Shown: one piece after another, positions 1 through 11,651 of the stretch
Numbering within the stretch: the stretch's first letter is position 1
How the letters are laid out: every line of letters starts with the position of its first letter
Source of the DNA: an uncultured beta proteobacterium
Lineage (GTDB): Bacteria; Pseudomonadota; Gammaproteobacteria; Burkholderiales; Burkholderiaceae_C
DNA: 11,675 nt
Direction of reading: 5' to 3'
Assembly: GCA_903920405.1 (NCBI GenBank)
Contig: CAIXMC010000234.1
Span: 1 to 11,675, forward strand
The notes under the pieces: generated by a model
Database searches by the model: none
The model's input: the letters and a program-made list of their open reading frames with translations, nothing else
Told to the model about the DNA's origin: nothing
Position numbers and translations under genes: made by a program

Positions 1-201
1 CAGAGCCAAAACGCTCTCAAAGATTGGTATCGTAAGCTGGTGCAAGAAATTTCTGAAGAAGTTCTTCCCTCTCGCCGCAACCGAATCAACCCACGCGTCA
101 TCAAGGTAAAAATGAGCAAATGGCCTAAAAAAAGAGCTGTGCATCGATCCTTTCCACAACCCAGTAAATCGTTCGTGGAAGCTATTACTGTGCTCCATTG
201 A
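1..201 (+). CDS. IS4-family transposase, C-terminal fragment (5' end outside the window)
   Basis: Reading frame 1 is open from the first base to TGA at 199-201 and gives 66 residues with no start inside the window, so this is the 3' end of a longer gene. The segment PRRN-like 'PSRRNRINPRVIKVKMSKWP' followed by a basic KKRAVHR stretch and a proline/glutamine-rich tail resembles the extreme C-terminus of IS4-type DDE transposases, where an NPRVxKxKMSxxxxKR motif is common. The catalytic DDE residues would lie upstream and cannot be seen. The family call rests on remembered motif resemblance only. The stop is 41 bases before the receptor ATG, and the gene runs in the same direction as the operon that follows. 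Whether the transposase is intact cannot be judged from this fragment. Confidence 0.7.
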   Translation, partial: QSQNALKDWYRKLVQEISEEVLPSRRNRINPRVIKVKMSKWPKKRAVHRSFPQPSKSFVEAITVLH

Positions 202-242: not shown

Positions 243-2300
243 ATGTCTGGTATCAAAATTACTCGAAGCAATGGAGCACGCCGCAAAGAATGGCACCGTC
301 GGCTGAACCGCCTGCTCCTGACTCTGGGCGTGTCGCTGGCTTTACCGGTGCAAGCCGGTACCGACGTTTTGGATCTGCAGTTGGAGGATCTCCTCAAGGT
401 GGAAATCAAGAGTGCTTCGCGCAAGTTGCAGCACGTGCAGGATGTCTCGGCAGCGGTGTTTGTCATTACCCGCGAGGATATTGATCGCTCGGGCGCCCAA
501 ACCATCCCTGATGCGCTACGGCTGGCCCCTGGGGTTGAGGTGGCACGCATTGGCAACAACCGCTGGGCGGTGAGCATTCGCGGTTTCAATGGCCGCTTTG
601 CCAACAAGATGCTGGTGCTCAAAGATGGCCGCAGTGTTTACTCGCCACTGTTCTCGGGCGTGATGTGGGAAGATGAAGACGTCATCCTTGCGGATGTCGA
701 TCGCATTGAAGTCATCCGCGGGCCGAGTGCGGCCATGTGGGGATCCAACGCAGTCAACGGTGTCATCAACATCATTTCGCTTGATCCGTCCAGCATGCTT
801 GGCACCGAGATCAGTGCCTCCAGCGGCACCGATCAGCCGGGATCCGTCACTGTGCGCCACGGTATGAAGGTCGGCAACGGGCATGTGCGGATTTCGGCCA
901 AGGTGGCTGATCTTGATCCGGCTCACACCAGCAGCGGCGATCAAGGCAACGATAGCTGGCGCAACCAACGCCTGGGCTTGCACGCAAACTGGCCGGCGGC
1001 CGACGGCGGGAACTGGATGCTGGTGGGCGAGGCCTACCAGTCACGCGCCGACGACCGGCTCGACTACACCCGCTATGGCAGGGTGCCCCCCTTGTTTGAC
1101 ATACAGCAAGCCGACTCCGGCAGCAGTCTGCTGCTGCGCCGTGAGCAAGCCACTGGCGGCGGCGGGAACCAGGAATGGCAGCTCTCGGCGCAGACATCGG
1201 TGAGTGATTTGGAGAGCTTGATTCACGTGCAGCAACAAACCGTGGCGGGAGAGTTTCAGCAAAGTTTGCCCAGCGGCGCGCATGAGTTGATGTGGGGTGG
1301 CGCTTACCGGCTCTCACGCGACGACATTCAACTGCCCGGCTCCGTGATGTTCGACCTGGCCAAGTTCGAGCAACAGCAGCGCGACTGGCGACTGGCCAGT
1401 TTTTTTGTCCATGACGACTATGCACTCCTCCCCCGGCGCTGGCAGCTCAGTGGTGGCGTGCGCGTTGATTTTGACAGTTGGAGTGGCACCCAGGTCCAGC
1501 CCGACATTCGACTGGCCTACACACCCAGCGCCAGCAGCACCTGGTGGACCTCCCTGGCGCGTGCCTCACGCACCCCCTCGCGCCTGGAGCTTGACGTGCC
1601 GTTTCTGTTTTCTGAAACCCCCGCCGTACCGCCCGCTACGCCGGCTGTTGACACGGTGCGCGTGCCGCCGGCGGCGGGGTCCCTGAAGGCCGAGATTGTG
1701 ACCGCACTGGAGGCCGGTTGGCGCAGCCGCGTCAACGCCGAGTTGTCCCTTGACCTGAGCGTCTTCACCGCCGATTACAGCGACGTTGTCAGCATGTCCA
1801 CGCAACCCATGCAGATGGTCTCACCTGTGGTGGTGGTGGTGCCGCTGACCAGCATCAATGGAGCCAAGGTGCACACCCAGGGCTTCGAGCTGGCCGCCGA
1901 CTGGCAGGTCAGGCACGACTGGCGCCTGCAGTCGATCTACTCGCGACTCTACCTGAGCAGCCCAGCGCTGGCCGACCCTGCCGCTGCGGCCGAGCAAAGC
2001 CTGTGGATCGGTCGAGTGGCGCGTGAGCGGGCTTCCTTACGCTCGGCATGGACGCTCAACAATGGGCACCAGCTCGACCTATGGTTGAGGCACGTCAGTG
2101 GCTTGAGCAACCCGCCAGTGCCAGCCTATACCGAGCTGGACCTGCGCTACGCCGTGCCGCTGGGTGGCCATGGAAACCTGATCCTCATTGGCCAAAATCT
2201 GCTCAACCGTCGCCATCCCGAGTTTGTCTCTGATTACCTGCCAATCCAGCAGACGGAGGTGGGACGAAGCCTGCTACTCAAGGCCACATGGCACTTCTGA
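243..2300 (+). CDS. TonB-dependent outer-membrane receptor
   Basis: The product has 685 residues when started at ATG 243. Residues 1-38 form a Sec signal peptide: a basic region (RRKEWHRRLNR), a hydrophobic core (LLLTLGVSLALPV) and a likely cut after VQA. A TonB plug domain follows at about 65-180, with clear hallmarks: VFVITREDIDRSGA, ALRLAPGVEVARIG, SIRGFNGRFANKMLVLKDGR, IEVIRGPSAAMWG and NAVNGVINII. The rest, to a terminal phenylalanine (ATWHF), is the beta-barrel expected of BAM-assembled receptors. Family members sit in the outer membrane and import siderophores, cobalamin or other ligands using TonB-ExbBD energy; the ligand here cannot be told. No transporter or ExbBD genes adjoin. Instead it heads a run of signalling genes and overlaps the next start by 13 bases, which suggests a sensing role (inference). 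Residues encoded at 1827-1841 are five consecutive GTG valine codons, perhaps in an extracellular loop. Confidence 0.92.
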   Translation: MSGIKITRSNGARRKEWHRRLNRLLLTLGVSLALPVQAGTDVLDLQLEDLLKVEIKSASRKLQHVQDVSAAVFVITREDIDRSGAQTIPDALRLAPGVEVARIGNNRWAVSIRGFNGRFANKMLVLKDGRSVYSPLFSGVMWEDEDVILADVDRIEVIRGPSAAMWGSNAVNGVINIISLDPSSMLGTEISASSGTDQPGSVTVRHGMKVGNGHVRISAKVADLDPAHTSSGDQGNDSWRNQRLGLHANWPAADGGNWMLVGEAYQSRADDRLDYTRYGRVPPLFDIQQADSGSSLLLRREQATGGGGNQEWQLSAQTSVSDLESLIHVQQQTVAGEFQQSLPSGAHELMWGGAYRLSRDDIQLPGSVMFDLAKFEQQQRDWRLASFFVHDDYALLPRRWQLSGGVRVDFDSWSGTQVQPDIRLAYTPSASSTWWTSLARASRTPSRLELDVPFLFSETPAVPPATPAVDTVRVPPAAGSLKAEIVTALEAGWRSRVNAELSLDLSVFTADYSDVVSMSTQPMQMVSPVVVVVPLTSINGAKVHTQGFELAADWQVRHDWRLQSIYSRLYLSSPALADPAAAAEQSLWIGRVARERASLRSAWTLNNGHQLDLWLRHVSGLSNPPVPAYTELDLRYAVPLGGHGNLILIGQNLLNRRHPEFVSDYLPIQQTEVGRSLLLKATWHF

Positions 2301-2842
2301 TGATATTTTTTGGTGCCAACTGGAGGGCTCGTCTGCTCAGTGCCTGCGCGCTTATCCTGTGGGCGTTGCCGGGCTTAGTGCAGGTGTCGACTTTGAGCAG
2401 TGGCGAGCGCGAACTGAAAACGGCGTTCCTCTACAACTTCATTCTTTTTACCGAGTGGCCAGCGGAAACTGGCAAGACCCTGACTCTGTGTGTTCTCGAA
2501 CCGGACCCGCTGGGCCATGCTCTTAACGCACTGCAAGGCAAAGCCGTTGGTACGCGCCAACTGGCGGTGCAGATCCGAAGCGCCGATTCACTCAATGCCT
2601 GTGACGCCGTTTTTATGGCAGCCTCCGCTGCGGGCGCGTTGACGCAAGTGCTTGAGTATCTGCGCGGCAAGCCCGTTCTTACCATCGCCGACCGCCCTGA
2701 CGCTGCCCGCCAAGGCGCAGTCCTGAACATGGCGATCACCGCCAACAGGATCAGTTTTGAGGCCAATTTGCGGACCGCACGAGAGGCGCACCTTCAAATC
2801 AGCTCCAAGCTATTGCGGCTGGCCTCGGGGATCATCCAATGA
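2288..2842 (+). CDS. YfiR-family (DUF4154) periplasmic regulatory protein
   Basis: The product has 184 residues, about the usual family length. An N-terminal signal peptide or anchor spans about residues 11-36 (basic NWRAR, then a hydrophobic stretch). The mature part shows DUF4154 hallmarks: [13 protein letters not shown] at 46-58, [12 protein letters not shown] at 65-76, NACDAVFM at 103-110, the PVLTIAD and [10 protein letters not shown] strands, and a closing ISSKLLRLA at 171-179. Cys68 and Cys105 match the pair expected to form a disulfide in YfiR. In Pseudomonas aeruginosa YfiR binds the periplasmic side of the CHASE8 cyclase YfiN and represses it. Here the next gene also carries a CHASE8-like sensor, so this protein probably regulates that kinase (inference). 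The ATG at 2288 overlaps the receptor end by 13 bases. An in-frame ATG at 2300 overlapping the receptor stop is an alternative. The reading frame ends in ATGA shared with the kinase start. Confidence 0.88.
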
Positions 2843-5184
2843 GGCGGAACTATTCGCTCGGCCAGCACCTAGCGCGAATCAACCGTTGGGCACTGCTTAT
2901 GGCGCTTGGGTCGGTGGCGGTCATCATTGCCATTAGCAACTTCGCGCTGGACTTTCTTAATCTGGTTCATGGCAGTCAAGTTCAAGCGCGCGTGCTTGCG
3001 GAGAACTCCGCCGCGTCATTATTGTTCAAGGACACAAAATCGAGCGAAGAGCTGTTGCAGTCCTTGCACCAATCCCCCGATATCCTAAGCGCGGCGATCT
3101 ATGCCAATGACGGCAGTCTGCAGGCCAAATACATGGGCATCGGGTCAAAGGAACCCTCACTGATACCCGTCCCGCTGGCGCTGCACGCCAGTTATTTCGA
3201 GGTATCCGAGCCAGTGCGGTTTAAGGCCAAGCAGTATGGCTTTCTTGTGCTGACCGTAGAGCTGGGCAGTCTGTACAGAGAAACCGGCGGGCGCCTGCTG
3301 GTCACGATGCTGGCTACCGTCCTGGCGCTGGGCGCCAGTGGCCGGTTGCTACGGCGTCTCAATGCCGGCGTGTTGACCCCGTTTGCGTCGCTGAACCAAC
3401 TGATGCGCCAGACAGCAGATGGCTCAAACTTCACCGATCGCGCCTCGCCTTGCGGCATTGAAGAGCTTGATTTGCAGGCCAACGGCTTTAACACCATGCT
3501 GGAGCAAATTATTGATCGCGAAGCCCGGCTGGAGCATCAGCGCAACCACCTGGAAGAGGAAGTAAGACGCCGTACCGCAGACCTGCAAGTTGCCAAGGAG
3601 CAGGCGGAGGCAGCGAATCGGGCCAAAAGTGAGTTTCTGGCGACCATGAGTCACGAAATTCGCACCCCGATCAATGGCATTCTGGGCATGAACGAATTGT
3701 TGCTTTATAGCCCTTTGACGCCTGAGCAACAGCAGTGGGCACTGACGACGCAACGTTCAGGCCAGCATCTGTTGGGCGTGATCAACGACATTTTGGATTT
3801 TTCCAAAATTGAATCGGGCCGCATGACCATGGAGGCGCTGGATTTCAGTCTGACCGAGCTGGTAGCCGATGTACTGCTCATGTTTTCCGAATCAGCACGA
3901 AACAAAGGGCTGGAGCTCAGCACAAAATTCACCCCGCCAGAGGCATCTTGGGCGCTGCGTGGTGATCCGCTGCGCCTGCGCCAGGTGCTGGCCAACCTGG
4001 TGGGCAACGCCATCAAATTCACCCATCAGGGCAAGGTGGTGGTGATCGTCACGCAGGCCGCGCCGGTCACCCCCGAGGTGGCCTTGCGGCTGTGTATTGA
4101 AGACACCGGCATCGGCATTGCATCGGAGTTGCAGGCCTCGATCTTTGAGCACTTCTTACAAGCCGACAGTACCACCACGCGACGATATGGTGGCTCCGGT
4201 CTGGGCCTGGCAATTTGCCGGCGTTTGCTCGGGCTCATGGGTGGTACCGTTTCGGTGCAAAGCACGCCCGGGCAAGGTTCCACGTTTTGTATTGACCTGT
4301 GTTTGCCGCCTGCTTCTGCCGAAGTGATACCGCTCCCGGGTTTTGAAGCGCTGGCTTTTGATGGCGGCAGGTTCGAGCAAACGCTGTGGGGCAGTGTGCT
4401 GGTGGTGGAGGACAACCGGACCAACCAACTGGTGGCCAGAGCCATGCTCAGGAAACTCGGGCTGCAGGTCGAACTGGCCGCCAACGGCGCAGAAGCTGTA
4501 GCCCAAGTATCCCAGACCCACTTTGACCTGGTGCTGATGGACTGCCAAATGCCGGTGATGGATGGTTTTGAGGCCACCCGGCTGATCCGGCAAATGACAA
4601 GCGAGCGCAACCCTCCCCTGCCGATTGTGGCACTCACTGCCAACACCATGCACGGTGACGAAAGGGACTGTCTCGATGCCGGAATGGATGCTTTCTTGGC
4701 AAAACCGTTGACGCTATTGAACTTGCATAACATGCTGGCGCGCTGGTTGAGGACAGAGCGCCTGTCAGGTGCGCACACCTCGCAGTCGCCTGACCCAGCG
4801 CAGGGCGCAGCGGCCACCGGGGATGTCGGCAGCGCGATTGACCCGATGGTGATGGACACGTTGCGCAGTTTGGACGAATCGGGCGGCACAGCGCTGGCGA
4901 ACGAGGTTTTTGGCAGCTACCTGAGCGATGCCCGCAGCTTGATGAACCAGTTGCAGACTGCCATCGACGCCGGCGACTTCCCGACGCTGTGCCATGCGGC
5001 GCATGCGCTCAAGTCAAGCAGCGCCAACGTAGGGGCGCAAACTCTTTCGGCGAGCTGTCGCGAACTTGAGGGCAATGCCCGCAACGGCAATCTCGATGCC
5101 GCCCGCTCAGCGTTCGTTGGCGTGCCGCAAGAGTACCAACGCGTGGTGCTGGAGATCGAAAGAATACTGGAGAACTTCCCATGA
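2839..5184 (+). CDS. Membrane hybrid histidine kinase: CHASE8-HAMP-HisKA-HATPase-REC-HPt
   Basis: The product has 781 residues. TM1 is at about 17-38, a periplasmic segment at 39-150, TM2 at about 152-171, then a HAMP linker (about 172-226) and a coiled coil (226-262). The periplasmic part ([20 protein letters not shown], then [16 protein letters not shown]) resembles CHASE8 of YfiN. The kinase core is complete: the H-box SHEIRTP has phospho-acceptor His272, the N-box has Asn390 (LVGNAIKF), G1 is DTGIGI from Asp422 and G2 is GGSGLGL at 451-457. A receiver follows with acceptor Asp568 ([13 protein letters not shown]), then a C-terminal HPt with His722 ([14 protein letters not shown]). Every phosphotransfer residue is therefore present for a His-Asp-His relay. 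Start and stop are shared by ATGA overlaps on both sides, and GGGGA sits about 7 bases upstream of the ATG. The likely phosphate recipient is the next gene's receiver (inference). Confidence 0.93.
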
Positions 5185-7328
5185 AGCTCGAACAAGCCAA
5201 AATACTGGTAGTCGATGACGACCCGACCGCGCGCCTGATGATGCGCGCTGCGCTTCAAAAGCTGGGCTATGAAGTGATCCTTTCCAGCGGCGGTGAAGAT
5301 GCCCTGCGCCAGACTCAGCGTCAGATGTTTGATTTGGTCATGCTGGATGTGGACATGCCCGACATCGATGGTTATCAGGTCTGCAAGGCGCTGCGCAGCG
5401 CTGCGGGCCACCTGTTACCGATCATGATGGTGACCGGGATGGACGATGTGCAATCGGTGGAGTCCGCCTTTGATGCCGGCGCGACCGACTTCATTGCCAA
5501 ACCGATCAACTGGGCGCTCATTGGACACCGGGTGAAGTATTTGCTTAGAGGCCACGCGATACTGCAAGACCTGAGCGCCGCCAAAGCCCATACCGAAGCA
5601 ATTCTGAGCGCCCTCCCGGATTTGCTGTTTGAGATTGACCTGAGCGGGCGCATTATCAGCTACCACTCACCGAATACCGAACTTCTGGTTACGCCGGTTG
5701 AATCGTTTATCGGCAAGACGGTTACCGAGGTATTGCCACCCACGGTTGCACAAACCTGCTTGTCGGCTCTTAAGGAAGCCCATCGCAAGGGTGTCTCCAA
5801 TGGCAAACAGTATGAACATGTGCTGCGCGACGTTGTTTTCTGGTTTGAACTCTCGGTGGCGCGCAATAAGTGCACCCAGAGCGAGCTGCCACGGTTTATT
5901 GTTCTGGCGCGCGACATCACGGAGCGCAAGGCGGCCGAAGAAAAAATACGGCAACTTGCTTTTTATGACCATTTGACGGGGCTGCCAAACCGATTTAACT
6001 TCCTCGACCGAGTCAACCTCGAGATCAATCGAGCCAAACACAGCCATTCGCGCTTCGCCGTGCTGTTTATGGATCTTGACGGCTTCAAGAATATCAATGA
6101 CACCATGGGTCACGTTGCGGGGGATATTGCGCTGAAAACGGCGTCAGCGGCAATCCAGGATGCCGTGCGCTCGGTCGACTTGGTGACGCGCGCCAGGGCC
6201 AACTGCAGTGGTGTTCAGATTGCACGGCTGGGCGGCGACGAGTTCACGGCACTGATACTGGACATCAAAGCGCCGGAAGATGCGATAACGGTAGCTACCC
6301 GGATTCTCGAAATGGTTCGGCGCCCCTTCATGCTTAACGGCAAGTCAACACGCCTGACCACCAGCATCGGTATCGCCATCTATCCGGAGGATGGTGACGA
6401 CGCCACTGATTTGCTAAAAAATGCTGACGCCGCAATGTATTTGGCCAAGGACTCGGGCCACGACCAGTTTCAGTTTTACAACGCCAGTCTCACCGAGTTG
6501 GTGAACCGGCACGTGGAAATGGAGCGCGATTTACGCCTGGCACTGGAGCGCGATGAGTTTGTGCTGCATTACCAGCCGCAGGTGAATGTGACCTCAAAAC
6601 AGGTTTGCTCTGCCGAAGCGCTGATTCGCTGGCACCACCCCCTGCGAGGGCTGGTGCCGCCGCTTGACTTTATACCGGTCGCCGAGCAAACCGGATTGAT
6701 CGTTCCGATTGGTCGATGGGTGCTGTCCTGCGCCTGCGCGCAGGCCGCGAGCTGGCAGCGCGAGGGGCGCCCGTTGCGAGTGGCGGTTAACCTGTCGCCC
6801 GTTCAGTTCAAGGATCCAGACCTGGCGCGGCATGTGCAGGAAGCGCTGGATCAAACCGGTCTGTCACCCCAATACCTGGAACTCGAGGTGACCGAGAGCA
6901 TGCTGATGGCCAATACGGAAGCCAGCATGAAAACACTTAAGGCATTTAGCGAGGCAGGCGTACAAGTCTCGCTTGATGACTTTGGCACCGGCTACTCGTC
7001 GCTAAGCTACCTCAAGCGCATGCCTCTGGACAACATCAAAATAGACCAAAGTTTTGTGAAAGAATTGCCGGGCGATGCCGAAACTCTGGCCATCGTTCAT
7101 GCGATCCTGGCCATGTCCAAAAGCCTGGGCTTGAGCGCAACTGCCGAGGGCGTGGAAACCCTCGAACAGGCACAACTACTAGAGTCCATGGGATGCGACT
7201 TGCTGCAGGGCCACTTTTTCAGCAAACCTGTGGCTGCGCAGGCGATGCGAGCCTTCCTCGGAACTGACCCGTTGAATCTGACGCAAAATGACGGTTCCGA
7301 TCGATTCGCATTGCAAGGTGGTATATAA
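5181..7328 (+). CDS. Response regulator with REC-PAS-GGDEF-EAL (cyclic-di-GMP turnover)
   Basis: The product has 715 residues and no membrane segment. The receiver (about 1-122) has the acidic triad Asp12-14, phospho-acceptor Asp56 ([12 protein letters not shown]) and Lys107 (FIAKP). A PAS domain spans about 135-247, ending in ARDITERK. The GGDEF domain (about 258-430) keeps the signature GGDEF at 351-355 and the metal-site MDLDGF. The EAL domain (about 445-695) keeps Glu479 (EAL), Asn537, Glu569, Asp599-Asp600 (DDFGTG), Lys620, Glu656 and Gln676, so a phosphodiesterase is expected. Both domains look catalytically competent; net activity cannot be read from sequence. A 12-residue insert (336-347) separates an I-site-like RSVD (330-333) from [13 protein letters not shown] lies 7 bases before the ATG, which overlaps the kinase stop by 4 bases. 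It is probably the output of the preceding phosphorelay. Confidence 0.95.
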
Positions 7329-7393: not shown

Positions 7394-10300
7394 ATGACCA
7401 AAGAAACACAGTCCACGAAGATCACGACCTTAAGGGCGGATTTGAAAAGTCTGCGACATCAGCTTTCATCTTTGAGAAGTCTTTCTTTGGGAGGTTATTG
7501 CACCCTCAGCGAGCCGGGGCTTATCGTTCAAGCCAGCATGACTGCCGCCACCATGCTGGGGGTGATTCCCTCTCTGTTGGTTAAAAAACGCATCAGCCGG
7601 TTCATCCTGAAGGAAGATATGCCCATCTTCTCCAGGATGCGCACTCAGCTTCAGATGACGGGTGAGCCGCAACAGTGCAATGTGAGAATGACCAGGAGCG
7701 ACGGAACACAATTCTGGGCACATTTGGTGGCCACCACCCTACATGGCGACGATGGTGTTCTTCTGAGTCGCATCGTTCAAACCGACATCAGTGATCTGAT
7801 CAACACGGAAGCAAAACTGCATGAAAGCGAGGAATACAGAGATGCCATTTTGGACTCTATTGCCTCGCAAATTATCGTTCTTGACGCTGTCGGCAATATT
7901 GTGGAGTGCAATGAAGCCTGGCGTAAGTTTTTCAGACAGCAAAGCGCCGAAGATGACACGGCGGCCAGTCATGGCGGGATTGGAATCAGTTACCTGAAAA
8001 TGTGTCGGTTCTGTTTTGATAATTTCAGCGAAAACGCCACGGATGCAGCAAAAGGCATCCTGGGTGTGCTCAATGGCAGTACATCCATTTTTCACCACGA
8101 ATTCCAATGCCGTTCTCACACTCAGCCATATTGGGTCAGCATGGTCGTGACACCGCTTGCAGGAAAGAACAGTGGGGTGGTGATTAACCTGACCGACATC
8201 ACTGATCGCAAGGAAGGTGATGTCAGACTCACCCAGAAAGAAACCCTGTTGCAATCCATAATTCACGCCATTCCCGATCTGATCTGGATGAAGGACATCG
8301 ATGGTGTTTATTTATATTGTAATCAACGCTTTGAAGGCTTCTTTGGGACTGGGGAAAAAGAAATTATTGGCAAGACGGATTACGATTTTGTAACTAAAGA
8401 GCGTGCAGACTTTTTTCGTGACAAAGACATAGCGGTGATGTCATGTGGCGAGCCTCTCACCCATCAGGACTGGATTGAGTTTACCAATGACGGCCACAAA
8501 GAACTTCTTGAAATCACCAAAACACCGATATTTGATGCGAATCATTGCTTGATAGGCGTGTTTGGAATGGGACACGACATCACTGAGATAACAGCAGTGC
8601 ATGATCAACTCAAATCCAATGCCTTATTTTTCAGCGCACTCATGGAAGCCGTGCCAATGCCGGTGTTCTACAAGGACACAGAAGGGCGTTACCTCGGTGT
8701 CAACAAGGCGTTTGAGCTGTTCAGAGGCTGCTCAAGGGAAGCCATGATTGGTAAAACCGTGTTCGATATTGCACCACGTGAGATGGCCGCTATCTACTAC
8801 GCCAAAGACAAAGAACTGTTTCAAAACCCCGGTGGGCAGATTTACGAGACACAAATGCCAGACGCCTTGGGCCAAGTGCATGACGTGGTGTACCACAAAG
8901 CGACATTTGTGAACGCTCATAACGAGGTTATCGGACTGATCGGCGTGATACACGACGTGACTGACCGCAAAAAGTTGGAAGCAGAGATGCTAGAGGCGAA
9001 TGCGCTGCAAAACGCAATCTTCAACAGTGCCCTTTTCTACGGCATCGCCACAGATACCCAAGGTGTCATCAAAGTATTCAACGTTGGCGCACAACGTATG
9101 TTGGGGTACACGGCCGAGGAAGTTGTGAACAAAGAGATGCTGACCAACATCACGCATCCGCAAGAAGTGACGGATCGTGCCAAGGCGCTCAGTGTTGCAC
9201 TCAATAAGCCGATAGCACCAGGCTTTGATGCGTTGGTCTGCAAAACATCACACTGTGTTGAGTCTATTCATGAGCTGACCTTCATCCGCAAAGACGGTGG
9301 TCGTGTACCCACAGTGGTGACGGTCACGGCACTACGCAATGCAACGGATGTCATCATTGGCTACCTGGTGATCGGTACCGACAGTACGGTGAGCAAGTGC
9401 CTTGAGTCTAACCAAAAGGAACTCAACCAGCGTTTATATGACTTGCAGTTCTACACGCGCTCGTTGTTTGAATCCAATACTGACGCACTGATAACCATTG
9501 ATCCATCAGGTGTCATCACCGATGTCAACAAGCAGATGGAGGTCCTCACTGATTGCACGCGTGATGAATTGATGGGCACACCTGTCAAAAGCTATTTCAC
9601 CGATCCAGAACAGGCTGAAACCAGCATCCGTCGGGCGCTTGATACAAAGAAAGTAATCAACTTGGAATTCACTGCGCGCTCAAGGGACGGTAGGGAAACC
9701 ATGGTGTCCCTCAATGCAACGACGTTTTATGACCGCAACAGAAAGCTTCAGGGCATTTTTGTAGAAGCACACGACATCACAGTGCGAAAACAAATGGATC
9801 AGGTTTTAAAAGACCAAAACATTGCGCTTGAGAATGCCAAAATTGCCGCAGAAAAAGCCAGCCTGGCCAAGAGCGCCTTTCTTGCCAATATGAGCCATGA
9901 GATTCGTACCCCTCTCAATGCCGTGCTGGGCTTGGCGCAGATTGGCATGCGCGAATGTATCGACAGAGAATGTATCGACAGCGAAATCGGCCGTGTCTGT
10001 CCGACGGGCAATACCTTTAGGCGCATTGTTGATGCTGGTGAATACCTGTTGGGCATCATCAATGACATTCTGGATGTTTCCAAGATCGATGCCTACAAGC
10101 TCAAAGTTGAAAAGCTGCCTTTTGCCCTGCTTGCAACCATTGATGGTGCGGTGAGCTTTGTCACGGGTCGTGCGAATGCCAAGGGTTTGACCGTATCCAT
10201 TGTGCTGTCAAATGACCTGCCAAAATGGGTGGAAGGCGACGGTCTGCGCCTTTCCCAGATTCTCATTAACCTCTTGTCCAACGCGATCAAGTTCACTCCC

Positions 10301-11431
10301 AGTGGCACCGTGACCCTGGCGGTTATGCGTAATGGCAGCGACACCTCGTTTCAAATCAGCGATACAGGCGTAGGCATGACTACTGAGCAGATATCCCGAC
10401 TTTTTCAGCAGTTCGAGCAGGCCAATACTTCGACCACACGCACCTACGGTGGCACCGGACTGGGCCTTTACATCAGCATGAACCTCGCACGTCTCATGGG
10501 CGGCGACATCAGTGTGCAAAGTACACCAGGCGCAGGCAGTAGCTTCACCCTCCATTTGAGTTTACCGGCCGTGACAGCCCCAGAACATCTTTCAGTCGAA
10601 AAAGCAACTACCCATTCAGACCTGTCTGGTATTTCTATTCTGGCCGCAGATGACGTTGAAATAAACCGACTGGTGCTGACAGACATGCTTGAACATGAAG
10701 GAGCCAGTGTTGAATGTGTCGAGAATGGCAAAGAGGTTCTTGAACGTTTACAAAAGTCTGGGGTTGCGGCCTTTGATGTGATCCTGATGGACATTCAAAT
10801 GCCGGTCATGGATGGTTTTGAAGCGACCCGCCTCATCCGACAGATGGCTCCCACACCCACACTCCCGATCTTGGGTCTGACGGCGTATGCAATGGCCGAA
10901 GAGCGTGAGAAATGCCTGGCTGCAGGCATGGTCGATGTCGTGACCAAGCCGATCAAACTCAAAATTCTGATGACTGCCATTTTGAGACAGGTGTCCAACC
11001 GCAGGCCTGTCAACACGGTATGTGATGTCGTCGATGTGACACCCAAAACCACACCGTCCGAACCCACCGAAGTGGCATCGTGTCCATCTTGCATCATTGA
11101 CTGGCAGGCGTTGCTGGCCACTTACGGCGGGCGACGGGAGTTTGTCGCAAAAATTGCCCTCTCAATTTGCCAGCATCACGCCAATACACCAGCCAAACTG
11201 CGGTTGGCGGCACAAAAAAGTGACCGCAAGACTTTGGCCTTTATCGCGCATGGCCTGAAGGGATTGAGCATCGAAACCCGCCGTCTGCGCGAGCTGAGTC
11301 TGGCATTCGAATCCGCAGAGCGCGCCGGGGATGTCATCTCGTCAGAAAGTGTCGAAGCCTTGGCCCTTGAATTGGAGGCCGTTCTGCTTGAACTGGGAAC
11401 GGTCAATCAGCCACAATGGGGTCAGTGCTGA
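7394..11431 (+). CDS. Soluble hybrid histidine kinase with about six PAS domains, REC and HPt
   Basis: The product has 1345 residues and no evident signal peptide or membrane segment, so it is probably cytoplasmic. Six PAS-like units are seen at about 32-135, 148-273, 285-399, 411-526, 540-668 and 686-800; several end in the PAC-type motif D(I/V)T(D/V)RK. After a coiled coil come HisKA with His835 (SHEIRTP), HATPase with Asn963 (LLSNAIKF), DTGVGM from Asp990 and GGTGLGL at 1019-1025. A receiver with Asp1133 (ILMDIQMPVMDG) follows, then an HPt-like domain with His1286 (AHGLKG). All relay residues are present. The HPt lacks the usual GA pair after the histidine motif. The hairpin between the two HisKA helices is enlarged by about 11 residues, including a duplicated ECID(R/S). 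PAS2 has a CxxC (204-207). No Shine-Dalgarno site is evident before ATG 7394, but the reading frame fits. Input ligand and partner regulator are unknown. Confidence 0.93.
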   Translation: MTKETQSTKITTLRADLKSLRHQLSSLRSLSLGGYCTLSEPGLIVQASMTAATMLGVIPSLLVKKRISRFILKEDMPIFSRMRTQLQMTGEPQQCNVRMTRSDGTQFWAHLVATTLHGDDGVLLSRIVQTDISDLINTEAKLHESEEYRDAILDSIASQIIVLDAVGNIVECNEAWRKFFRQQSAEDDTAASHGGIGISYLKMCRFCFDNFSENATDAAKGILGVLNGSTSIFHHEFQCRSHTQPYWVSMVVTPLAGKNSGVVINLTDITDRKEGDVRLTQKETLLQSIIHAIPDLIWMKDIDGVYLYCNQRFEGFFGTGEKEIIGKTDYDFVTKERADFFRDKDIAVMSCGEPLTHQDWIEFTNDGHKELLEITKTPIFDANHCLIGVFGMGHDITEITAVHDQLKSNALFFSALMEAVPMPVFYKDTEGRYLGVNKAFELFRGCSREAMIGKTVFDIAPREMAAIYYAKDKELFQNPGGQIYETQMPDALGQVHDVVYHKATFVNAHNEVIGLIGVIHDVTDRKKLEAEMLEANALQNAIFNSALFYGIATDTQGVIKVFNVGAQRMLGYTAEEVVNKEMLTNITHPQEVTDRAKALSVALNKPIAPGFDALVCKTSHCVESIHELTFIRKDGGRVPTVVTVTALRNATDVIIGYLVIGTDSTVSKCLESNQKELNQRLYDLQFYTRSLFESNTDALITIDPSGVITDVNKQMEVLTDCTRDELMGTPVKSYFTDPEQAETSIRRALDTKKVINLEFTARSRDGRETMVSLNATTFYDRNRKLQGIFVEAHDITVRKQMDQVLKDQNIALENAKIAAEKASLAKSAFLANMSHEIRTPLNAVLGLAQIGMRECIDRECIDSEIGRVCPTGNTFRRIVDAGEYLLGIINDILDVSKIDAYKLKVEKLPFALLATIDGAVSFVTGRANAKGLTVSIVLSNDLPKWVEGDGLRLSQILINLLSNAIKFTPSGTVTLAVMRNGSDTSFQISDTGVGMTTEQISRLFQQFEQANTSTTRTYGGTGLGLYISMNLARLMGGDISVQSTPGAGSSFTLHLSLPAVTAPEHLSVEKATTHSDLSGISILAADDVEINRLVLTDMLEHEGASVECVENGKEVLERLQKSGVAAFDVILMDIQMPVMDGFEATRLIRQMAPTPTLPILGLTAYAMAEEREKCLAAGMVDVVTKPIKLKILMTAILRQVSNRRPVNTVCDVVDVTPKTTPSEPTEVASCPSCIIDWQALLATYGGRREFVAKIALSICQHHANTPAKLRLAAQKSDRKTLAFIAHGLKGLSIETRRLRELSLAFESAERAGDVISSESVEALALELEAVLLELGTVNQPQWGQC
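9953..9982 (+). repeat. 15-bp in-frame tandem duplication inside the kinase HisKA region
   Basis: The unit GAATGTATCGACAG(A/C) occurs twice in direct succession (9953-9967 and 9968-9982), identical at 14 of 15 positions. It encodes ECIDR-ECIDS (reading frame offset by the flanking codons) in the loop between the two dimerization helices of the histidine kinase. The 15-base length keeps the frame. Confidence 0.9.
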
Positions 11432-11589: not shown

Positions 11590-11651
11590 CGTCATTCCCG
11601 CGAAGGCGGGAATCCAGAATGCACTAGATTCCCGCCTTCGCGGGAATGACG
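11590..11651. repeat. Perfect 25-bp inverted repeat, REP/BIME-like
   Basis: The arm at 11590-11614 is the exact reverse complement of the arm at 11627-11651, separated by a 12-base loop (CAGAATGCACTA). Each arm is itself a hairpin: ATTCCCGC, loop GAAG, GCGGGAAT. Two REP-like units facing each other is the arrangement of a BIME. GTCATTCCCGCGAAGGCGGG-type repeats are common between genes in many proteobacteria and can be mobilised by REP-associated (RAYT) transposases. It could also stabilise or terminate the kinase transcript about 160 bases upstream, though no T-run follows. Confidence 0.85.

Follow-up and report, generated by a model that had tools for sequence, protein, structure and literature searches.

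The window, the whole 11,675-nucleotide stretch of DNA analysed here, comes from an uncultured beta proteobacterium whose draft genome consists of 458 contigs. Its first four genes overlap one another successively on the forward strand (Table 1). The earlier note had assigned them to a TonB-dependent receptor (TBDR), YfiR, CHASE8 kinase and REC-PAS-GGDEF-EAL family with overlaps of 13, 4 and 4 bases and with neither a transporter nor an ExbBD gene among them. All four ORFs were confirmed at their positions with the expected Pfam domains, as were the overlaps (2288-2300, 2839-2842 and 5181-5184) and the lack of transporter and ExbBD genes. By gene, the domains were Plug; DUF4154; CHASE8, HisKA, HATPase_c, Response_reg and Hpt; and Response_reg, PAS_4, GGDEF and EAL. 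Another in-frame ATG lies at 2300 in yfiR; starting there would shorten the first overlap to 1 base. In the ORF list the receptor frame is already open from a TTG at 198, but ATG 243 is the likelier start because AGGA precedes it. Scanning the window for tRNAs and Rfam families yielded no matches, and promoter and terminator patterns in it were not above those in shuffles.

Table 1. Genes of the window, with the evidence for each assignment.
Feature	Position	Strand	Evidence
TonB-dependent receptor (TBDR; plug + barrel; TOL_0244-like)	243..2300	+	ORF; Plug 80.5 bits; NF053590; structure model
YfiR-family (DUF4154) protein, N-terminal hydrophobic stretch	2288..2842	+	Pfam 138.4 bits (cut-off 24.9); NF053591; structure match
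CHASE8-HisKA-HATPase-REC-Hpt hybrid histidine kinase	2839..5184	+	five Pfam domains over cut-off (CHASE8 48.2 bits, cut-off 27)
REC-PAS-GGDEF-EAL response regulator	5181..7328	+	Pfam; motif residues
PAS-repeat hybrid kinase (PAS repeats-HK-REC)	7394..11431	+	ORF; Pfam

The PAS-repeat hybrid kinase gene, absent from the earlier note, begins 65 bases 3' of the REC-PAS-GGDEF-EAL gene on the same strand. None of the relatives compared, from the genus or the family, showed it at the equivalent position, and it lies outside the conserved set; it is possibly co-transcribed with the four genes as an extra input. Elsewhere in the same genome, contig C69 carries a second cluster of the same families in permuted order. 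The genome has three Plug-bearing loci, and two of these adjoin its two YfiR genes.

The receptor matched NF053590, the TOL_0244 family of TBDRs, over its full length (515.5 bits, under the curated cut-off of 645). A structure model predicts a plug plus a barrel, presumably of the 22-strand type, and the segment ahead of the plug is conserved in the receptor alignment. In a Pfam scan at E 0.001 the receptor matched Plug alone and no N-terminal signalling (STN) domain, and signalling of the FecA type was rejected on this basis. The YfiR protein, presumed to be periplasmic, matched almost the whole of NF053591, the TOL_0243 family of YfiR-like proteins (108.4 bits, under the curated cut-off of 125), and also the P. 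aeruginosa YfiR structures (E 2.7e-14). Hydrophobic stretches lie on either side of CHASE8 (residues 19-37 and 153-171). Judged by motif presence in the sequence, the kinase motifs with H272, D568 and H722 are intact, as are those of the regulator (D56, GGDEF 351-355, EAL 479-481 and the remaining EAL motifs looked for).

Conservation of the gene order beyond close relatives had been set beforehand as a test, and TBDR, YfiR and CHASE8 recur together in about ten phyla, going by the titles of the records; many of these are MAGs, so that an individual phylum label may be incorrect. At the 97 YfiR genes of 299 genomes of the phylum, a same-strand TBDR gene was adjacent in 54 cases, against 0.3-3.4 expected by chance under a simple random-placement model. 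A TBDR lay within 8 kb of 70 of these YfiR genes and a CHASE8 gene accompanied 79; 27 had no TBDR inside 8 kb. At genome level (n=299; NF053590 scan at E 1e-60, at most 4 candidates scored per genome), a TOL_0244-type TBDR and YfiR were both present in 49 genomes, the TBDR only in 2 and YfiR only in 21. The genus sample had an adjacent TBDR at 20 of its 22 YfiR genes. A receptor-centred scan, built from the best 80 matches of a contig search, gave 79 loci; among the matches listed YfiR lay within 6 kb in 66 and was missing inside that distance in 13. Receptor and YfiR are thus separable, as both the 13 receptor loci and the 27 YfiR genes show, although contig ends truncate some of these stretches.

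Chance adjacency or an assembly artefact could be suspected in a draft genome, but we give it practically no weight. The genome-level, receptor-centred and YfiR-centred counts all show a recurrence beyond chance, the linkage is likewise present in complete single-contig genomes (e.g. G246 and G102), and the explanation was rejected. The complete set, including a REC-GGDEF(-EAL) protein, was found again within the genus and the family as well as in distant lineages, and the parts are on record in the isolates Denitromonas iodatirespirans (L157), Geomonas limicola (L165, permuted order) and Thiocystis minor (L184). What is widely conserved is the envelope trio rather than the whole four-gene set.

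This distinction was also evident in the outputs. The mixed samples used here and below (210 YfiR domains, 168 tree rows, 92 distance loci and 106 entries) combine the 79 receptor-centred loci with YfiR-centred ones (97 from the phylum, all 22 from the genus, and 20 of 77 family matches, mostly high-scoring, plus 5 already included), and shares in them are therefore not frequencies. Among the 106 entries with TBDR, YfiR and CHASE8 kinase, in which L172, L222 and L234 each count twice (for L234, a single YfiR split into two pieces), a regulator with GGDEF or GGDEF-EAL was fused to the kinase or within 1.2 kb of it in 25, and any recognised second-messenger regulator in only 31. L165 and L176 were scored as having no regulator because their REC-GGDEF-EAL gene immediately precedes the TBDR and falls outside the 1.2 kb around the kinase. 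In 60 entries this range held no separate REC gene other than kinases. Outputs at related loci comprise GGDEF-EAL, GGDEF, HD-GYP or class III cyclase regulators, or a GGDEF(-EAL) fused to CHASE8; often none is adjacent. In one relative (L188) the kinase and regulator genes, the third and fourth of the set, are fused. The window's CHASE8 protein, a hybrid kinase, lacks GGDEF, and in seven genus relatives the CHASE8 protein itself carries GGDEF-EAL, so that the output lies within one protein (six read TBDR-YfiR-CHASE8-GGDEF-EAL and one has the same parts permuted). On the YfiR+CHASE8 tree (FastTree, 168 rows), which has several long branches and leaves 57 of its 165 inner branches open, we counted at least ten changes of output. 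The envelope half (receptor, YfiR and CHASE8) is a conserved cassette whose cytoplasmic counterpart has been swapped repeatedly.

The outer-membrane partner changed far less on the same tree: there was one change between OmpA and TBDR when rows with neither were left out. No OmpA-like (YfiB) frame was found near the window's YfiR with a profile of our own, and a TBDR stands there instead. YfiB-like OmpA genes occurred at 8 of the 97 YfiR loci and at none of the 70 with a TBDR within 8 kb (hypergeometric P 1.5e-5). YfiR residues were compared between the two groups. Cys145-Cys152 is the pair at the YfiB interface; the window's YfiR has A and N in these columns and lacks the pair. This second Cys pair is complete in 9/9 OmpA-linked proteins, and the C152 column holds Cys in 0/162 TBDR-linked ones. 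Two further columns count against a YfiBNR-like relay. That of F151, a YfiN-related residue in P. aeruginosa, is F in 9/9 OmpA-linked proteins and I, L or V in 151/162 TBDR-linked ones. The E163 column has E in 57/162 TBDR-linked proteins yet in only 3/9 OmpA-linked ones. On the CHASE8 side, the AAVVF-type motif is the YfiR-binding motif, and the window reads AASLLF there. Its Phe is kept in the alignment columns of 127/127 TBDR-linked and 9/9 OmpA-linked domains; the strict AAVVF pattern matched 24/127 and 0/9, respectively.

Pairwise distances over 92 loci were correlated for TBDR-YfiR (0.41), TBDR-CHASE8 (0.43) and YfiR-CHASE8 (0.54), with only 0.06 for TBDR-HK; the YfiR-HK value of 0.18 was also above all 500 shuffles. 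The pattern was the same with 69 and with 40 non-redundant loci. For 22 very distant loci the signal was weaker, and 17 (TBDR-YfiR), 47 (TBDR-CHASE8) and 12 (YfiR-CHASE8) of 300 shuffles were as high. By sequence distance, then, receptor, YfiR and CHASE8 diverge together, and divergence of the kinase domain does not track that of the receptor. These results weigh on the idea that the receptor and the YfiR-kinase unit sit in one operon so as to be expressed together, with no signalling link. The loci with one partner alone (13/79 and 27/97) would fit such co-regulation, but linkage over about ten phyla in permuted orders, the exclusion of YfiB and a co-divergence that spares the kinase domain make it very improbable.

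A more serious alternative is that the receptor imports its ligand in the ordinary TonB-driven way and that YfiR binds the imported ligand in the periplasm and controls CHASE8, which would make receptor-YfiR contact unnecessary. The YfiR fold resembles an ABC substrate-binding domain in the available text of PMC4655355, the modelled receptor is nearest in the PDB to BtuB, an importer, and the genome has ExbD/TolR-family genes elsewhere (3 matches). TOL_0244 was itself taken by its authors for an alkane uptake receptor (PMC6304351, available text). The same-strand flanking genes made up 79 rows (57 downstream and 22 upstream, L234 twice in each), and 20 rows were Pfam-scanned. Seven were REC or kinase partners. 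The remaining 13 comprised pairs of valyl-tRNA synthetases, epimerases and alpha/beta hydrolases, and one each of a pyruvate dehydrogenase E1, a semialdehyde dehydrogenase, an Mg-chelatase-like protein, a transporter of the EamA type, a binding protein of the ZnuA type, a protein with weak AAA matches and a protein without any match. No transporter or catabolic gene recurred among these 13, and a conserved metabolic or transport partner was rejected for the 20 of 79 rows scanned. Furthermore, YfiB imports nothing and is nevertheless excluded by the TBDR as if both had one job. The co-divergence of TBDR and YfiR fits contact, though a shared ligand could also produce it. We regard import followed by periplasmic sensing as unlikely, at perhaps one chance among several.

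We consider it probable that the four genes form a trans-envelope relay like YfiBNR, with the TBDR replacing the lipoprotein YfiB as outer-membrane input. An extracellular ligand would occupy the receptor, and occupancy would alter its periplasmic face towards YfiR, which could then shift between receptor and CHASE8; for this step we rely on the YfiB-YfiR-YfiN precedent and on co-divergence. CHASE8, freed or loaded, would switch the hybrid kinase, and phosphate may flow from H272 to D568, to H722 in Hpt and on to D56 of the regulator, all residues present in the sequence. The balance of GGDEF and EAL, whose active-site motifs are both intact, would set the level of c-di-GMP. On this reading the receptor would touch YfiR and may act as sensor rather than importer, with control of a sign that may go either way. 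The earlier note had proposed a self-contained pathway from the outer membrane to the second messenger, which is supported in part. Its route is backed by gene order, the L188 fusion, co-divergence and YfiB exclusion; as a four-gene set ending in c-di-GMP it does not hold generally, a GGDEF or GGDEF-EAL regulator being close to the kinase or fused to it in 25 of 106 entries.

That receptor, YfiR and CHASE8 genes keep company in many phyla suggests an outer-membrane input for a signalling family whose input was previously unknown. We lean towards the view that TBDR-YfiR-CHASE8 is the more common arrangement in the YfiR family, with YfiBNR one side branch. It would be a general outer-membrane receptor platform through which outside ligands set nucleotide second messengers (c-di-GMP, synthesised or degraded via GGDEF, EAL or HD-GYP; possibly cAMP/cGMP via class III cyclases) and further kinase outputs, bypassing the sigma/anti-sigma route taken by the FecA type. 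Should the receptor prove to be a sensor, TBDRs would have, beyond uptake and FecA-type sigma signalling, direct control over second messengers and perhaps over life on surfaces. Since TOL_0244 is induced on C28 alkane (about sevenfold) and resembles the reported alkane sensor OmpS, according to the available text of PMC6304351, substrates that cells attach to may be among the ligands.

YfiB-less, modular YfiR/YfiN-like systems were already described by Malone et al. in 2012 (PMC3375315), and in the text available their input was left open; the gene neighbourhood now offers a concrete candidate, a TonB-dependent receptor, that can be tested in the named isolates. Those systems share YfiR and a CHASE8-type partner with ours, have outputs that include histidine kinase, Hpt and GGDEF-EAL, and comprise, in Thauera, a hybrid kinase accompanied by two YfiR. 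TonB occurs 0 times in the main text of that paper (Table S4 apart), and the HD-GYP and class III cyclase regulators found here beside such kinases are not among the outputs in its available text. Our literature search found no paper stating a link of TBDR to YfiR; as far as their available text goes, PMC13380032 deals with a CHASE4 protein and no TBDR-YfiR link, and PMC11481889 has one TBDR insertion among hyper-adhesive Caulobacter mutants. The closest named pair is NF053590/NF053591 of Thalassolituus oleivorans, with consecutive locus tags TOL_0244/TOL_0243; both window proteins match almost the whole models but score under the curated cut-offs (515.5/645 and 108.4/125). OmpS of Alcanivorax dieselolei, 40.3% similar to TOL_0244, is likewise a TBDR reported as an alkane sensor, but it is reported to work via chemotaxis genes (PMC6304351, available text). 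An Alcanivoracaceae receptor-family locus (L189), which we do not equate with OmpS, lacks YfiR nearby. FecA-type cell-surface signalling (TBDR, FecR, ECF sigma) also uses a TBDR as signal input, but the window's receptor has no matched N-terminal signalling domain and no FecR or sigma gene is among the four. With YfiBNR (TpbB) of P. aeruginosa and its kin the window shares a DUF4154 YfiR, an inner-membrane CHASE8 protein that keeps the YfiR-binding Phe, an outer-membrane partner gene within the cluster and c-di-GMP as the likely output. It differs in that a TBDR stands in for YfiB, an OmpA-like lipoprotein, YfiR is without the Cys145-Cys152 pair, and CHASE8 sits on a hybrid kinase with the c-di-GMP enzymes on a separate response regulator.

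An ORF and domain analysis agreed throughout with the frames, overlaps and domains that an earlier note had assigned to the four genes, namely a TonB-dependent receptor (TBDR), a YfiR (DUF4154) protein, a CHASE8 hybrid kinase with Hpt and a REC-PAS-GGDEF-EAL regulator. The receptor matched NF053590 (TOL_0244 family TonB-dependent receptor, NCBIfam) along the model at 515.5 bits (cut-off 645), and YfiR matched NF053591 (TOL_0243 family YfiR-like protein, NCBIfam) at 108.4 bits (cut-off 125). The two families are named after consecutive locus tags, and the window pair falls under both cut-offs. The receptor was predicted by AlphaFold to form a plug and barrel (mean pLDDT 72, alignment of 12 rows); the closest PDB fold to this model was BtuB and the closest by sequence was Cir. 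P. aeruginosa YfiR structures were matched by the YfiR profile (E 2.7e-14). Judged from their sequences, the kinase and regulator carry phosphorelay motifs and also the motifs for GGDEF and EAL activity, and the regulator has an RxxD that begins 21 residues ahead of GGDEF. The PAS-repeat hybrid kinase that follows was not found at that position in the genus and family relatives compared.

Features of the window and its four-gene set
Feature	Position	Strand	Remark
Open-frame end	1-201	+	directly ahead of receptor gene; last residues resemble an IS4-type transposase tail
TBDR	243-2300	+	
YfiR	2288-2842	+	
CHASE8 hybrid kinase with Hpt	2839-5184	+	
REC-PAS-GGDEF-EAL regulator	5181-7328	+	
PAS-repeat hybrid kinase, large	7394-11431	+	65 bases downstream of four-gene set
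Inverted repeat, TTCCCGCCTTCGCGGGAA-type	about 11590-11651		after last gene; resembles repetitive extragenic palindrome

Linkage was examined from YfiR in a phylum sample of 299 evenly drawn genomes, 70 of which held DUF4154 (97 matches in total, all neighbourhoods examined). A same-strand TBDR was adjacent to 54 of the 97 YfiR genes (49 upstream, 5 downstream), where random placement predicts 0.3 to 3.4 adjacencies with 3 to 90 TBDR genes per genome; 70/97 had a TBDR no more than 8 kb away, whichever the strand. CHASE8 adjoined 79/97. An OmpA-like gene resembling YfiB, the outer-membrane partner in Pseudomonas YfiBNR, was present at 8/97, and none of the 97 loci had both this gene and a TBDR. 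Within the same sample, 47 of 63 receptor matches lay within 5 kb of a same-strand YfiR, and 75 of 105 CHASE8 matches were no more than 500 bases from YfiR. A TOL_0244-type receptor and YfiR occurred together in 49 of the 299 genomes (receptor only 2, YfiR only 21, neither 227). The system is patchy, since only 19 of 60 genomes in a genus sample had YfiR; there, 20 of 22 YfiR genes had an adjacent TBDR. The window's own genome (90% complete) contains three Plug-bearing loci, two of them adjoining its two YfiR genes.

Some compared loci (L-numbers) showed other arrangements. A tandem TBDR pair precedes a single YfiR in L052 (10123-14291), L215 and L226. One frame in L171 (2435-3778, +) has two YfiR-profile matches, either two domains or one interrupted domain, and a histidine kinase-REC protein in L121 (7542-10136, -) has a fused YfiR domain, as though YfiR were its periplasmic sensor domain.

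Linkage was also examined from the receptor, in one scan of named genomes with a receptor alignment. Among the matches listed (79 loci), YfiR lay within 6 kb at 66, CHASE8 at 55, a kinase at 57 and GGDEF at 24; YfiR was not found within that distance at 13, including an Alcanivoracaceae MAG (L189) and Methylobacter records (L197, L232). By record titles, the YfiR-linked loci among these matches, many from MAGs, belong to Pseudomonadota, Desulfobacterota-type groups, Nitrospirota, Nitrospinota, Acidobacteria, Planctomycetota, Verrucomicrobia, Victivallales, Armatimonadota and Krumholzibacteria. The TBDR-YfiR-CHASE8 association is real and widely conserved.

Pairwise distances were correlated over 92 loci. 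TBDR-YfiR (0.41), TBDR-CHASE8 (0.43) and YfiR-CHASE8 (0.54) each exceeded all 500 shuffles. TBDR and kinase domain showed no such correlation (0.06), although one protein carries both the kinase domain and CHASE8; CHASE8-kinase domain reached 0.16, with some of 500 shuffles as high, and YfiR-kinase domain 0.18, exceeding all. Restricting the set to 69 or 40 non-redundant loci left the envelope pairs high (equalled or exceeded in 0 to 7 of 300 shuffles) and put all three kinase-domain pairs at shuffle level; with 22 loci the signal weakened. Because p-distances are large (medians 0.59-0.74), this co-divergence is support and not proof.

The earlier note had read the four genes as a self-contained pathway. 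Their co-occurrence in the window's order was seen in genus and family relatives, and also in Denitromonas, Thiocystis, Pelomonas and an Armatimonadota MAG. This order is found at seven loci of the family (L138, L140, L142, L143, L145, L149, L152) and at four of the genus (L236, L239, L241, L242), and the 4-base kinase-regulator overlap of the window recurs in 9 of these 11; L252 and L253 share the order but have REC-GGDEF as the fourth gene. In seven further genus loci the CHASE8 protein itself bears the output (CHASE8-GGDEF-EAL); six are arranged as TBDR-YfiR-CHASE8, and L237 has the CHASE8 gene first. A second cluster in the own genome runs kinase, REC-GGDEF-EAL, broken TBDR, YfiR, its receptor gene (L032 5582-7619, contig C69) being split into overlapping frames by decay or draft error. 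Geomonas L165 has the order REC-GGDEF-EAL, TBDR, YfiR, kinase, and L188 has genes 3 and 4 fused into one protein of 1645 residues, following TBDR and YfiR. Both the permuted orders with the same parts and the L188 fusion suggest that the parts form a functional unit.

Outputs were counted in 106 entries in which TBDR, YfiR and CHASE8 kinase adjoin; these were pooled from YfiR- and receptor-centred loci and hence give shares, not frequencies. In 46 of them the output was fused or a non-kinase REC gene lay no more than 1.2 kb from the kinase; the other 60 had neither. These partners (Pfam on examples) were GGDEF-EAL (20), GGDEF (5), HD-GYP (3), class III cyclase (3) and other or REC alone (15), so that 31 of 46 are second-messenger enzymes. 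The GGDEF form is rare in the phylum sample (4 of 60 CHASE8 kinases). REC-HD-GYP genes adjoin the module in L168, L182 and L194 (Pfam for L194), and regulators with a class III adenylate/guanylate cyclase domain do so in L038, L040 and L048, where cAMP or cGMP output is possible. On an unrooted FastTree of YfiR plus CHASE8 (168 rows), the outer-membrane partner switches once between OmpA and TBDR when rows with neither are left out, the OmpA group represents 2 changes when all rows are counted, and output changes at least 10 times.

The available text of Malone et al. (2012, PMC3375315) describes YfiR-YfiN pairs that lack YfiB and whose outputs are GGDEF-EAL, histidine kinase, Hpt or MCP, and proposes an ancient core coupled to varying inputs and outputs; its main text, as available, does not mention TonB. 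Literature searches, confined mostly to papers outside subscription, found no statement of a YfiR/CHASE8-TBDR link among the papers listed. In the accessible text of PMC6304351, Thalassolituus TOL_0244 is up sevenfold on n-C28 and 40.3% similar to OmpS, which is reportedly required for alkane detection (also mentioned in PMC5174103 and PMC9788540). The TBDR is a strong candidate for the missing outer-membrane input of YfiR signalling. In the simplest model the receptor would stand in YfiB's place. Its chief rival is that the receptor imports a ligand that YfiR then binds: the YfiR fold is described as resembling an ABC substrate-binding domain (PMC4655355, in part), so YfiR could bind what the receptor imports, and ExbD/TolR-family genes elsewhere in the own genome are compatible with uptake. 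Gene order fits both models.

For a receptor in YfiB's place, the comparison is P. aeruginosa YfiBNR. There, according to the portions available, the YfiB interface of YfiR includes the Cys145-Cys152 disulphide with the adjoining Glu144 and Ser146, the residues Glu163 and Ile169 are used with both partners, YfiN and YfiB (PMC4655355), and the AAVVF motif of YfiN is the predicted YfiR site (PMC3375315). Both cysteines are present in 9/9 OmpA-linked YfiRs, whereas TBDR-linked YfiRs have Cys in the first column in 7/162 and in the second in 0/162. The AAVVF Phe is retained in 127/127 TBDR-linked and 9/9 OmpA-linked CHASE8 domains, and F162 of YfiR in 126/162 and 9/9, respectively; the F151 column is I, L or V in 151/162 TBDR-linked YfiRs, and the E163 column is E in 57/162 TBDR-linked and 3/9 OmpA-linked. 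On these residue counts, the YfiB side of the YfiR interface is not retained in TBDR-linked sets, and the CHASE8 side is partly retained.
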